DNA from: a bacterium
Lineage (GTDB): Bacteria > Patescibacteriota > Microgenomatia > Levybacterales > UBA12049
Reading direction: 5' to 3'
Length of the DNA stretch: 38,262 nt
Assembly (NCBI GenBank): GCA_021785915.1
Contig: JAJYEF010000003.1
Coordinates: 1-38,262 of the forward strand
Shown here: piece by piece, positions 6,922 to 35,816 of the stretch
Layout of the letters: each line of letters begins with the position of its first letter
Numbering within the stretch: the first letter of the stretch is position 1
Position numbers and translations under genes: made by a program
The notes under the pieces: model-generated
Database searches by the model: none
Told to the model about the DNA's origin: nothing
What the model saw: only the letters and a program-made list of their open reading frames with translations

Positions 6922-8943
6922 ATGCCCTCAATTCTAAAGAGAAATTTACTGCCCTTTTTTTTGTTGTCGTTTGTTCTTTTAGTGTATTTAAATAACCTTT
7001 CCCCGAGCGTGTACGGAGGGGATGTAGGGGATTTTGTAACAGCGGCAACCGTAATGGGTGTGCCCCATGCCTCGGGATATCCGCTTTTTGTATTTTTAGG
7101 CTTTTTATTGACAAGGATTCATTATATGACCCCGGCCTATATGGTCGGTATTATATCTGTAGTTTCTTCTGCTCTGGCTATATTCATTTTTTATCTCCTG
7201 GCGCTTGAGATGACCAAAAATAAATTCATTTCTGCCGTCTCCTCTCTTATTTTGGCTTTTACATATTTTTTCTGGTTTTTTGCGGAAATCGCGGAAGTAT
7301 TCGCGCTCAATAATTTTTTTGTTTTAATCCTGACGTTCCTCGGGTACCTGTATTACAAATATAAGGATACAAAATATATATACGCGCTTGCATTTTTTAC
7401 CGGACTCTCGATGACAAATAATTATATTATTTCCTTCATTTTCCCGACGCTTTTAATAATGGTACTAAGCAATTTTAGAAAATTACTGGCTAACCCCAAA
7501 ATTATTGTTAAGTGTATTCTGTTGGGACTTTTGGGATTAAGCGTTTATATTTATCTCCCAATAGCCGCATCCCATAATCCCCCGGTTAATTGGGATAACC
7601 CCTCCAACTTACATAATTTTCTGAGAATGGTCTTAAGGAAAGATTACGGAACATTCGGTGTAGGATTTGTTCCAAATCTTGTGTTTATGCAAAGGGTTCT
7701 TATCCAAAAGGATTATTTCGTAAGCCTAATCGGACAATTGACATTTCCCGTAGTTTTTATTGTTTTAATAGGTGCATATAAATTGTTTAGAACCGATAAA
7801 AAATTATTTTTTAGTTTCGCCTTGTCCTTTGTGCTTTCCGGCCCGGTATTTATCGGTCTCGTCGGACTTCCTCTTTTAAGCACATTTTTGGTCGGTGTTT
7901 ATGAAAGATTTTTTTCCATGTCTTCTGTTGTGCTCATGTTTTTCTTTCCCATTGGCCTTTTGACGTTCGTAGAGTTTTTTAACAAAATTCTCAAGAAGAA
8001 AACATATCAGAATCTTTTTATAGCGGTATTTTTAATAGTCCCGCTTATACTTTTCAGATATAACTTTGAAAAAACTAATTTAAGCCACGTATGGATCGGA
8101 GATAACCTTGCACTCGATCTTATCTCATCGCTTCCTAAAGGTGCCACCTTTTTACCGGTCGGGGACACACCGCTATTTGACAGCTGGTATATGGTATACG
8201 CACGGGGCGAGAGGACCGATTTGAAACTAGTTAATCACATTATGAACGACAGTCTCGTAAAGCTTCAGGACGCTTACCTTAAAAAGCATCCTAAGGAAAA
8301 AGTCAGCCAGGATATAACAGCCCTTACGCTTAAAGATCTTGCCAACAGGACGAATGTTTTTTCAAATGCACAGATCCAGGTTAGTAAAGGCCAACCCTTG
8401 ATTTGGATGCCCTGGGGCTTGAATTTTAAACTTTTAACCAGCGCAAAGCAAATCCCGACCGAACAGCAATTTTTAGACCTTCAGGATAGAATATGGAGCA
8501 AATTTTTAAATACGCCCTCAGAGCTTAAAAGCAATGACCCCGGCTATAACGGCTCGACCATTTCAGATATAAGCTCGGTGTATTCCGGCGCAATGATGTC
8601 AGAAGGAGCGTTTGTCAACAACTATTACAAAGACACCAAACTGGCTCTTGCCCTTTTTAATAAAGCACAGGAGCTTTCTCCCCAAAACTCCAAAGCTTAT
8701 TTTTCAGCCGGATTTATCTATACCGAACAAAAACAATGTCAGTTAGCAATCGATAACGTAAATGAGGGGCTTAAATTTTCCCCGTTTGATAAAATGTCAT
8801 ATTATCTTCTTTATTACAACTATAAATTCTGCTTTAATGATATAACCAAGGCAAACGGAATAGTTGAAAAATACCATCAGCTTTTTAATAGCGATTTTTA
8901 CAAAGATATGCCCGGTGTTATTAAAAATTACGAAAGCCCATGA
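6922..8943 (+). CDS. DUF2723/TMEM260-like polytopic membrane protein with C-terminal TPR-like region
   Basis: N-terminal YLNNLSPSVYGGDVGDFVTAATVMGVPHASGYPLFVFLG is characteristic; C-terminal ALFNKAQELSPQNSKAYFSAGFIYTEQKQCQLAI. Confidence 0.8.
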   Translation: MPSILKRNLLPFFLLSFVLLVYLNNLSPSVYGGDVGDFVTAATVMGVPHASGYPLFVFLGFLLTRIHYMTPAYMVGIISVVSSALAIFIFYLLALEMTKNKFISAVSSLILAFTYFFWFFAEIAEVFALNNFFVLILTFLGYLYYKYKDTKYIYALAFFTGLSMTNNYIISFIFPTLLIMVLSNFRKLLANPKIIVKCILLGLLGLSVYIYLPIAASHNPPVNWDNPSNLHNFLRMVLRKDYGTFGVGFVPNLVFMQRVLIQKDYFVSLIGQLTFPVVFIVLIGAYKLFRTDKKLFFSFALSFVLSGPVFIGLVGLPLLSTFLVGVYERFFSMSSVVLMFFFPIGLLTFVEFFNKILKKKTYQNLFIAVFLIVPLILFRYNFEKTNLSHVWIGDNLALDLISSLPKGATFLPVGDTPLFDSWYMVYARGERTDLKLVNHIMNDSLVKLQDAYLKKHPKEKVSQDITALTLKDLANRTNVFSNAQIQVSKGQPLIWMPWGLNFKLLTSAKQIPTEQQFLDLQDRIWSKFLNTPSELKSNDPGYNGSTISDISSVYSGAMMSEGAFVNNYYKDTKLALALFNKAQELSPQNSKAYFSAGFIYTEQKQCQLAIDNVNEGLKFSPFDKMSYYLLYYNYKFCFNDITKANGIVEKYHQLFNSDFYKDMPGVIKNYESP

Positions 8944-31784: not shown

Positions 31785-31841
31785 TCAAATTCCCTTAATA
31801 AGGGTAATTTTGTTGATTTGGAAGACTTCTAAGTTATCCAT
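31785..31841 (-). CDS. putative leader peptide A: MDNLEVFQINKITLIKGI
   Basis: 18-codon ORF with AGGA upstream; stop codon sits in the 3' arm of the upstream hairpin. Confidence 0.5.
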   Translation of the reverse strand: MDNLEVFQINKITLIKGI

Positions 31842-32222: not shown

Positions 32223-32227
32223 AATGT

Positions 32228-32461
32228 TTATGAATTCTTTTGACCTTCATTAAATACTTCAATAGGTTGACTTTGTCCTGTAAATTTTTCAGCAGATGGA
32301 TTTAAATATCCTGATTGAAAAGCACGTAAAGCAGATTCGACTTGTGCTTGATCCGGTTCAACTCCTATTCTACTCGCTTGAAAGAAATCTTCTGAAGTCG
32401 GATACTCTCCTTTGTTTGGTACTTTTCCTCTTCTCCCTACTTCTACACTATAATAGGCCAT
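32228..32461 (-). CDS. small uncharacterised protein (unit B, second gene)
   Basis: AAAAGGAGGTGAAAAATATATG start. Confidence 0.65.
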   Translation of the reverse strand: MAYYSVEVGRRGKVPNKGEYPTSEDFFQASRIGVEPDQAQVESALRAFQSGYLNPSAEKFTGQSQPIEVFNEGQKNS

Positions 32462-32468
32462 ATATTTT

Positions 32469-32699
32469 TCACCTCCTTTTATTTAATTCTCCATACCATA
32501 ATTCTCGTGTTCTTTCGGCATCTTTTTGGCAATTGATACATCTGCAAATTTGAGCCCTTTTTTCTGCTGTAGCAATTTCCCGATTGGCTCTGGAGTTGTA
32601 GATTGTTAAAGCTTCTCTAATTGCAAGAGGAACCACTTCGTCTACAATTGGATCGGATAATTGCGAATCGGTCAGTTGTTTTTCTATTATTTCTTTCAT
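32469..32699 (-). CDS. small uncharacterised protein with CRCINC cysteine motif (unit B, first gene)
   Basis: GGAGTTATCTATG start at 32699; the TTG at 32711 in the ORF track is within the U-tract/SD. Confidence 0.65.
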   Translation of the reverse strand: MKEIIEKQLTDSQLSDPIVDEVVPLAIREALTIYNSRANREIATAEKRAQICRCINCQKDAERTRELWYGELNKRR

Positions 32700-32709
32700 A
32701 GATAACTCC

Positions 32710-32737
32710 AAAAAAAATCTCCCTTGTTTGGGAGATT
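32710..32737 (-). terminator. attenuator terminator B
   Basis: minus strand AATCTCCC-AAACAA-GGGAGATT followed by T-run, directly upstream of the SD. Confidence 0.8.
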
Positions 32738-32777
32738 GTTCTTTTGTTTAAAATTTTGTTTTATTACATCTTTTCTC

Positions 32778-32819
32778 CCAAACAATTACGCCTCCATAAG
32801 GAGGTTAATAATCGTTTGG
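32778..32819 (-). promoter_or_regulatory. leader hairpin 1:2 of unit B
   Basis: CCAAACGATTA..CCTCC-TTAT-GGAGG..TAATTGTTTGG, 11 bp outer stem (one G-U) plus 5 bp inner stem. Confidence 0.7.
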
Positions 32820-32839
32820 AAAAGAAAAGATCTTTTCAT
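32786..32839 (-). CDS. putative leader peptide B: MKRSFLFQTIINLLMEA
   Basis: 17-codon ORF starting about 5 nt from predicted TSS; stop at start of hairpin 3' arm. Confidence 0.5.
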   Translation of the reverse strand: MKRSFLFQTIINLLMEA

Positions 32840-32850
32840 ACTATAAAAAA

Positions 32851-32879
32851 ATTCTACAAAAGGTATCATTCCCTGTCAA
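32851..32879 (-). promoter_or_regulatory. sigma70-type promoter of unit B
   Basis: TTGACA-N17-TAGAAT. Confidence 0.75.
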
Positions 32880-33435: not shown

Positions 33436-33458
33436 AAAAAAACCTCCCGCTTGGGAGG
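33436..33458 (-). terminator. attenuator terminator C
   Basis: minus strand CCTCCC-AAGC-GGGAGG-TTTTTTT. Confidence 0.8.
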
Positions 33459-33482
33459 CTTTAAGGCGCATTTAATTAAAAG

Positions 33483-33545
33483 CTACGCCAAGAAACCTCC
33501 CCTTAAGGAGATCTTGATAAGCTTCTTAATAAAAATTAATTTCAT
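33483..33545 (-). CDS. putative leader peptide C: MKLIFIKKLIKISLRGGFLA
   Basis: 20-codon ORF downstream of TTGACA (33575-33580); ends TAG next to segment 2. Confidence 0.5.
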   Translation of the reverse strand: MKLIFIKKLIKISLRGGFLA

Positions 33546-33588: not shown

Positions 33589-34266
33589 TTATCCGACTTG
33601 GGTTGCAACATTTCGTTCGCCCGACAAAGTAAAGCTCGTCCCGTAAGCTTTCGCAGATGGCCAATAGCCCTTTTTATGAGTTTTTGCAGAAATTACCGTA
33701 AGCCAGCTCGTTGAATCTTCGATTTTTATTCGCGCACTTTGAAGCGTTACCAAAAGCCATTCGAAAAAGTTTAGGTGGTACTTGCCGGCGTTAGGGATGA
33801 TGTTTTCGATAGTTACGTCCTTTACGATCACCTCAAGCTCTGTCGAGCTCTTCGCAAGTTTTGCAATTTCCACTCTTACTTCTTCGATTTTTTGGCTTAG
33901 CTCCCTTTGTTCCTGCGAGGAAGCGCGTTCGGTGGCATTAATGATTTCGGAAAAATAGTCTATTGCGGGTTCTATTTCGGCCATTCTTTCCGATTTGCCG
34001 AGCACAATTTCCTCGCCTTCCTGCATCTCAATGAAATCATTTTGACCGACAGGACCTTCGTTGGAAGTGTGTTTTATGTCCTCTTTTTTAGCTTGCTTGC
34101 TTGCGCCCAAGAGTTGGTTCCAGAGGGCATTGACTTCAAGCTGGGCTTCGTCTTGCAATGCTTTCCTGGTCGCATCCAATGCAACAGATCCCGTATCCCT
34201 AAGTGCCTCCACAGGATTTCTGTCAAAATTTTTTATCCTATTTTTCTGGGTTTTTGTTTTATCCAT
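33589..34266 (-). CDS. uncharacterised protein, possibly DUF5660-like
   Basis: ORF directly downstream of tig with GGAGGC upstream of ATG; family guess from memory only. Confidence 0.5.
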   Translation of the reverse strand: MDKTKTQKNRIKNFDRNPVEALRDTGSVALDATRKALQDEAQLEVNALWNQLLGASKQAKKEDIKHTSNEGPVGQNDFIEMQEGEEIVLGKSERMAEIEPAIDYFSEIINATERASSQEQRELSQKIEEVRVEIAKLAKSSTELEVIVKDVTIENIIPNAGKYHLNFFEWLLVTLQSARIKIEDSTSWLTVISAKTHKKGYWPSAKAYGTSFTLSGERNVATQVG

Positions 34267-35258: not shown

Positions 35259-35816
35259 TTATAATGTGAGGGAAAGTGAATCCTTAGGGTCGTTTAAAGC
35301 GAATTTCTGGATGTCATTAAGGTAATAAAGTACGTGCGAAGCCCATACGGGAGAAGAAGCGTACATAGACCCTATTTGGTATATGTTTTGACCTCCCCAT
35401 TTGTCCATGTATCTTTGTCTTAATCCTGCCGAAACGGTTTGTATGCCCTCTTTCCAGGAACTAAATCTTATTACATTGTCGCCGTATACCCCCCATCCCC
35501 AACCATTATAAGAAGAGGGTGGAATTGACTTACCGAATGTGGATTCAACTCCGGCAATTGCGGCAACCAGTCTCCAGTCCAGATTGTACTCATCGGCATA
35601 ATAGATAAAATCCTGCGCATTTTTTGCCAACGGAGAATGCTGTTTCAACAGATATTTCTTTAGTATTTTTACACGGTAATCAGAACTTTCCGTAACCGAT
35701 TGGAAAGTTTTAATGTCCGCGGAGGACGCTGAAGCCTTTTCCTGTGAATACGCTTTTTGAGGAATAATCGTTAGTGCCGCAATAAAAAATATTGCAAGCA
35801 AAATTTTATTTCCCAT
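35259..35816 (-). CDS. secreted lysozyme/glucosaminidase-like protein
   Basis: signal peptide; DEYNLDWRLVAAIAGVESTFGKSIPPSSYNGWGWGVYG lysozyme-like motif. Confidence 0.75.
   Translation of the reverse strand: MGNKILLAIFFIAALTIIPQKAYSQEKASASSADIKTFQSVTESSDYRVKILKKYLLKQHSPLAKNAQDFIYYADEYNLDWRLVAAIAGVESTFGKSIPPSSYNGWGWGVYGDNVIRFSSWKEGIQTVSAGLRQRYMDKWGGQNIYQIGSMYASSPVWASHVLYYLNDIQKFALNDPKDSLSLTL

Follow-up and report, generated by a model that had tools for sequence, protein, structure and literature searches.

The minus-strand leader of two small orphan genes (leader B), located in the analyzed window, i.e., a 38,262-nt stretch of DNA corresponding to contig C14 of the 0.98-Mb genome G000, is very probably a switch by which the speed of a ribosome on a 17-codon ORF decides on downstream transcription. 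The closest named relatives of this genome are Candidatus Levybacteria/Levyibacteriota. Leader B is likely to represent the leu/ilv type of ribosome-mediated (leader-peptide) transcription attenuator, in which a ribosome stalled at Ile or Leu codons would turn the orphan operon on. The attenuator reading, already put forward in an earlier note made from the sequence, is supported by results computed in this work, i.e., the anatomy of the leader, its alternative folds and their switching, its conservation, the matched change of segments 2 and 3, and the match between codons and pathways in relatives; from these we infer the switch function in the cell, the Ile/Leu signal, translation of the ORF and termination. 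The mechanism itself is classical, and the novelty lies in its setting, where an attenuator of the amino-acid type precedes orphan genes in an organism predicted to be auxotrophic.

Architecture of leader B

Every element of leader B named in the earlier note is present, base for base, on the minus strand (Table 1). This applies to the promoter (TTGACA-N17-TAGAAT), to the leader ORF placed about 5 nt past the predicted transcription start (approximately 32844), to the terminator with the AAACAA loop, whose T-run is followed by GGAG and the ATG of the first gene, and to the 12-bp antiterminator, in which segment 2 is the exact reverse complement of segment 3 and which reaches into the terminator loop. 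Segment 1 pairs, as had been proposed, with TAATTGTTTGG (32788-32778), with one G-U pair. One detail had to be adjusted: the TAA stop codon (32788-32786), described previously as the first codon of segment 2, is indeed the first codon of the arm engaged in the 1:2 structure, but it abuts the 12-nt arm of the 2:3 helix and lies outside it. The ORF is near-leaderless and lacks a Shine-Dalgarno sequence. The computed 1:2 hairpin extends outward to about 32833, and contains an additional AUCUUUUCU/AGAAAAGAU arm and a CCUCC-UUAU-GGAGG apex (-32.9 kcal/mol).

Table 1. Coordinates of leader B, the neighboring leaders and associated genes within the window
Feature	Position	Strand	Basis or remark
-35 element TTGACA	32874..32879	-	sequence; same promoter in almost all related leaders, spacing 16-18
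-10 element TAGAAT, 17-nt spacer	32851..32856	-	sequence
Leader B ORF MKRSFLFQTIINLLMEA + TAA	32786..32839	-	sequence; homologues in relatives
Segment 1 CCAAACGATTA, core of the protector (1:2) hairpin	32809..32819	-	folds
Apical hairpin CCTCC-TTAT-GGAGG of the 1:2 structure	32791..32804	-	fold
Segment 2 TTGTTTGGGAGA, antiterminator 5' arm	32774..32785	-	sequence and folds; its 1:2 arm begins at TAA, 32788
Segment 3 TCTCCCAAACAA, antiterminator 3' arm, also terminator 5' arm and loop	32724..32735	-	sequence and folds
3:4 intrinsic terminator AATCTCCC-AAACAA-GGGAGATT	32716..32737	-	sequence and folds; T-run to 32710
GGAG, ribosome-binding site of the regulated gene	32706..32709	-	sequence; gene ATG at 32699
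Putative regulated gene, 76-aa orphan with CxxC motif	32469..32699	-	no family match; single-sequence model mostly helical
Second gene of the leader B unit, 77-aa orphan, own GGAGG site	32227..32461	-	sequence
Leader C ORF MKLIFIKKLIKISLRGGFLA, TTGACA promoter	33483..33545	-	same type as the Ile-type cimA leader in L137
Leader C segment 2 GGGAGGTTT	33501-33493	-	sequence
Leader C terminator AAGCCTCCC-AAGC-GGGAGGTTT	33440..33461	-	sequence
Leader A ORF MDNLEVFQINKITLIKGI, 14 nt behind tRNA-Val, no clear promoter	31785..31841	-	terminator ~31764-31746
DUF5660 (PF18904)	33589..34266	-	profile match; adjoins trigger factor in the window and in G001

Leader B thus combines a short translatable ORF, placed before a terminator and a gene, with mutually exclusive 1:2, 2:3 and 3:4 pairings. 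According to the proposed mechanism, a near-leaderless short transcript would begin with this ORF. If the ORF were not translated, segments 1 and 2 would pair, the 3:4 terminator would form and transcription would stop; the terminator would form again if translation reached the TAA, with the ribosome covering segment 2. Under scarcity of charged Ile- or Leu-tRNA, the ribosome would stall within the ORF and cover segment 1, and segment 2 would pair with segment 3 once the latter is made, leaving no terminator, and the orphan operon would be transcribed.

Computed switching and controls for chance

Computed folding revealed the mutually exclusive 1:2, 2:3 and 3:4 states. In the applied stall model, the transcript was folded with the ribosome footprint masked, the footprint reaching 12 nt ahead of the A site, a value borrowed from E. 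coli. Before segment 4 is made, the probability of the 2:3 helix equals 0.03 without a ribosome, 0.67 for a stall at codon 3, 0.98 for stalls at codons 4-17, and 0.00 for a ribosome at the stop codon. The computed states are therefore the terminator (no ribosome), the antiterminator (stall at codons 4-17), and again the terminator (ribosome at the stop). The 2:3 helix has a computed energy of -17.6 vs -11.1 for 3:4; at full-length equilibrium both structures are near balance (2:3 probability mostly 0.4-0.7 for stalls at codons 6-15, and lower elsewhere), so the switch model requires the 2:3 helix to form before 3:4. For a set of 31 leaders, a corresponding antiterminator measure averaged 0.42 for the free transcript, 0.16 with the ribosome at the stop, and 0.86 for the most favorable sense codon. 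Four leaders with longer tails (L015, L022, L056, and leader C) show a drop of this measure just after the run of I/L/V codons, which indicates that these are the control codons there.

The 139-nt leader B folds with -49.5 kcal/mol vs -22.0 +/- 3.6 for shuffled sequences (z -7.69; 0/200 shuffles as good), and shuffling the upstream region 300 times never produced a 2:3 helix equal in quality to that of leader B. Since requiring the 2:3 pairing biases pairing statistics, related leaders were collected with a finder blind to it, demanding only a promoter, an ORF and a terminator. Within 597 kb of fetched loci it yielded 64 matches on the strand of the genes, representing 46 different leaders, compared with 2 on the other strand and none in shuffled sequence; proximity to such genes was the reason for fetching many of these loci, and the counts therefore show specificity and not genome-wide frequency. 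For the 46 leaders, the score of each leader's own segments 2 and 3 was 12.5 vs 9.74 +/- 0.36 with partners permuted (maximum 10.96 in 2000 permutations). Moreover, the loop and segment 2 covary, as AAACAA occurs with TTGTTT and AAACCGA with TTGGTTT. Leader B could alternatively be an ordinary intergenic terminator accompanied by an ORF and complementarity that arose by chance, terminators being common and short ORFs easy to obtain in AT-rich DNA; this explanation is hardly credible, as it is contradicted by the shuffle, strand and conservation controls, i.e., the fold z-score, 2:3 pairing exceeding that of all shuffles, the 64 vs 2 vs 0 matches, and the retention of the arrangement in other genera.

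A search of genome G000 for the near-leaderless promoter pattern (TTGACA, -10, ATG within 4-14 nt) gave 70 matches vs 4 in the reversed control, which suggests frequent leaderless transcription in this lineage. Thirty of the 70 were fetched, and none of them except leader B scored as an attenuator of its kind.

Leader codons and downstream pathways in relatives

Dozens of such leaders, with codons fitting the gene behind them, were identified in Levybacteria. Leaders of the same layout precede ilvB, ilvE (L048 and L052), ilvA (L122), cimA (L137), and leuA (L104, L138, L139, and L142, as well as L141, assigned by position). The leuA leaders contain 40% Leu, and those of ilvB have Ile, Leu and Val in about even shares (Leu vs Ile+Val, Fisher P 7.6e-5). 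The leaders of ilvA (MLIKKAQIIINIITP) and cimA (MNKQNRSIIEIIASQEGGVLA) are Ile-rich, and a Thr-type attenuator (MKSANIVLTTTTTPF) precedes an aspartate kinase gene in a Microgenomates genome (L133, 3361-3540). It is this agreement between codons and pathways that argues most strongly for an architecture reading the supply of amino acids. The orphan-gene leaders, taken as a set, contain 41% I/L/V vs 25% in proteins (P 4e-13), with Ile and Leu enriched, and Val or Phe hardly so.

Additionally, a Phe-type attenuator (MNRFFAFFFFFTYP) was found in G001 (L012, ~8687-8870), behind a greA-like gene. The window has pheS in that place; in G001 no pheS follows, only short ORFs, making this the second leader that lacks the gene expected behind it. 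In L032 and L056, about 120-135 nt containing AATCCkCCG...GGGAGGAT-like repeats separate the terminator from the gene, and L113 has a gap of similar length; the repeats might constitute a second structured element.

Subtype and conservation of leader B

The anatomy of leader B is that of leuA and ilvE leaders. Of 374 genomes belonging to the class, 7 contained leaders with its type of pairing (TTGGGAGA with TCTCCC and GGGAGATTT), and the reversed control gave no match; one of these leaders stands before leuA in G004. The pairing occurs before leuA in L139 and L142 (the latter in G008) and before ilvE in L052. The same pairing (TTGGGAGA, TCTCCC, GGGAGATTT) was also observed in L100 (G102, another family; reverse complement, ~1444-1560), in which the leader MKKNLFNPPISLQIFGG, poor in I/L/V, precedes a long protein with an NAD-synthetase-like SGxxDSS motif.

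The counterpart of leader B in the sister genome G002 shows 91% DNA identity (153/168 positions) and a near-identical leader peptide (MKRSFLFQIITNLLMEA), in which 15 of 17 positions are the same and T-I-I is replaced by I-I-T. The protein behind it has no detectable similarity to that behind leader B. Further homologues of the peptide are present in G086 (LFIQTIIMSLIKG), G012, and G042. No second copy of leader B was found by DNA search in its own genome.

A short, hydrophobic peptide conserved to this degree between G000 and G002 could suggest an arrest peptide of the erm or tna leader kind, whose nascent chain senses a drug or a metabolite. We regard this as very improbable, because what the leaders of the family have in common is a codon class that tracks the pathway of the gene, and not a peptide sequence, and because searches with the downstream genes revealed no resistance, efflux, phage or defense family. 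A drug-sensing arrest peptide was rejected as the first choice.

Probable signal sensed by leader B

Leader-peptide attenuation being the preferred reading, the signal for leader B is most likely branched-chain amino acids (BCAA), chiefly Ile/Leu. Its own codon content singles out no amino acid: 5 of 16 residues are I/L/V, which is not significant when taken alone (P 0.38), and any computed stall at codons 4-17, including those at Phe, Gln or Asn, would switch the structure. As the putatively regulated genes are orphans, they offer no pathway with which the codons of leader B itself could be compared. An attenuator sensing translation in general, or a non-Ile/Leu amino acid such as Phe or Gln, is thus an alternative of some weight, consistent with this lack of positional preference, with two Phe codons in the ORF, and with Phe_leader being the best-scoring Rfam leader model (28.3 bits, below the cut-off of 55 bits). 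We nevertheless judge it unlikely, given that the subtype of leader B precedes leuA and ilvE in relatives, that the enrichment in the orphan-gene set concerns Ile and Leu, and that the Phe leader of the genus (MNRFFAFFFFFTYP) differs in look.

Putatively regulated genes and their neighborhood

The order on the minus strand is: trigger factor, DUF5660, leader C with a 175-aa orphan, leader B with the 76- and 77-aa orphans, tRNA-Val, leader A with a 69-aa orphan, and UPF0047. Leaders C (33600-33440) and A (31841-31741) flank leader B, so that three consecutive orphan units carry attenuator-like leaders; leader A (VFQINKITLIKG) seems to be a copy of leader B that has diverged. Elsewhere in the window, two strong tandem terminator hairpins (35890-35810, minus strand) are placed just before a 185-aa gene (35259-35816), behind a TTGACA-N17-TATATT promoter.

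The 76-aa orphan has no relatives in 60 genomes and no Pfam, PHROG or PADLOC match, and it shows no link to BCAA synthesis, charging or transport. Its single-sequence structure model is mostly one long helix (pLDDT 77); that of the 175-aa protein was useless (pLDDT 34).

The DUF5660 gene is present in 37 of 45 relatives and in none of 14 control genomes, and the content of the slot following it differs greatly from one genome to another. Of the 31 loci obtained by the DUF5660 scan, 19 have a leader at a distance of up to about 100 nt from the stop codon of this gene; one of these 19 leaders (G001) is without a clear promoter and I/L/V codons. Five of the 19 slot leaders are followed by ilvB, ilvA or cimA, and the genes following the other 14 have a different or unknown function. 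The slot orphans are mostly dissimilar, the related pairs being the 175-aa protein of the window with a 172-aa protein of G001, and a 72-aa protein of G002 with a 77-aa protein of G016.

Neither ilvB, ilvE nor a recognizable LeuA was found in G000, a draft genome rated 100% complete, and its sole HMGL-like gene is distant and has no leader. Hence, BCAA synthesis is probably absent and the organism is a predicted auxotroph. This absence, together with the presence of ilvB, ilvA or cimA in the same slot of five other Levybacteria, would also fit a relic, i.e., an attenuator of a lost leuA/ilv operon that now controls an unrelated gene without being selected for doing so. Such a relic seems rather improbable, since leader B and its G002 counterpart retain the promoter, ORF, segments and pairing across 9% divergence in front of dissimilar genes, and since the slot contains 14 orphan-gene leaders as opposed to 5 biosynthetic ones.

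Comparison with known attenuators

The enterobacterial leuABCD, ilvGMEDA, and ilvBN attenuators consist of a leader ORF with control codons, 1:2, 2:3 and 3:4 pairings, and a stop codon beside segment 2. Leader B resembles them in its ORF with putative control codons, in its protector (1:2), antiterminator (2:3) and terminator (3:4) pairings, and in the stop by segment 2, but differs in its lineage, very short 5' end, antiterminator reaching into the terminator loop, orphan target, and lack of a long control-codon run.

The ilvBNC operon of Corynebacterium glutamicum has a 15-codon leader peptide with I/V/L codons and a start codon 1 nt from the transcription start (PMC11857589), followed by terminator, antiterminator and anti-antiterminator hairpins (PMC11857589; ilvB-II motif, PMC10272879). 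That system controls BCAA synthesis, whereas leader B would control orphans; no sequence relation is claimed. Leader peptides with I/L/V codons and terminators were predicted before ilvB of Actinobacteria in 2005 (PMC1262725).

The ilvB, ilvE, leuA, ilvA, and cimA attenuators of Levybacteria share with leader B the promoter layout, leader length, terminator, and pairing, leader B belonging to the leuA/ilvE subtype. They precede cognate genes and mostly have clearer codon runs, and leader B does neither: its structural attenuator features are present, and the usual cognate target gene is missing.

Rfam searches at gathering and permissive thresholds returned only tRNAs and sub-threshold matches, e.g., Phe_leader (RF01859) and, with 20.3 bits, Trp_leader (RF00513), both far below their gathering thresholds (55 and 41 bits, respectively). 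A T-box riboswitch (RF00230) was rejected, as no covariance model match was obtained in this search; T-boxes also read amino-acid shortage at termination, but the signal of leader B would pass through translation of an ORF instead.

Significance

No description of leader-peptide attenuation in candidate-phyla bacteria was found in the open-access literature searched, and regulation in these bacteria is almost unknown. The match between codons and pathways makes regulatory logic readable from sequence alone, and an attenuator attaches a condition, i.e., amino-acid shortage, to orphan genes that offer no other handle.

We tentatively propose, as a possibility falling somewhat short of an even chance, that BCAA attenuators of Levybacteria sense starvation and thereby govern a rapidly changing slot of small genes of unknown function behind trigger factor/DUF5660. 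In predicted auxotrophs, the switch would be kept and the gene exchanged, so that Ile/Leu shortage would turn on lineage-specific proteins and not biosynthesis. If this is true, such a shortage would plausibly mean poor supply from a partner cell. Leader B may also serve as a test case for a switch outliving the genes under its control.
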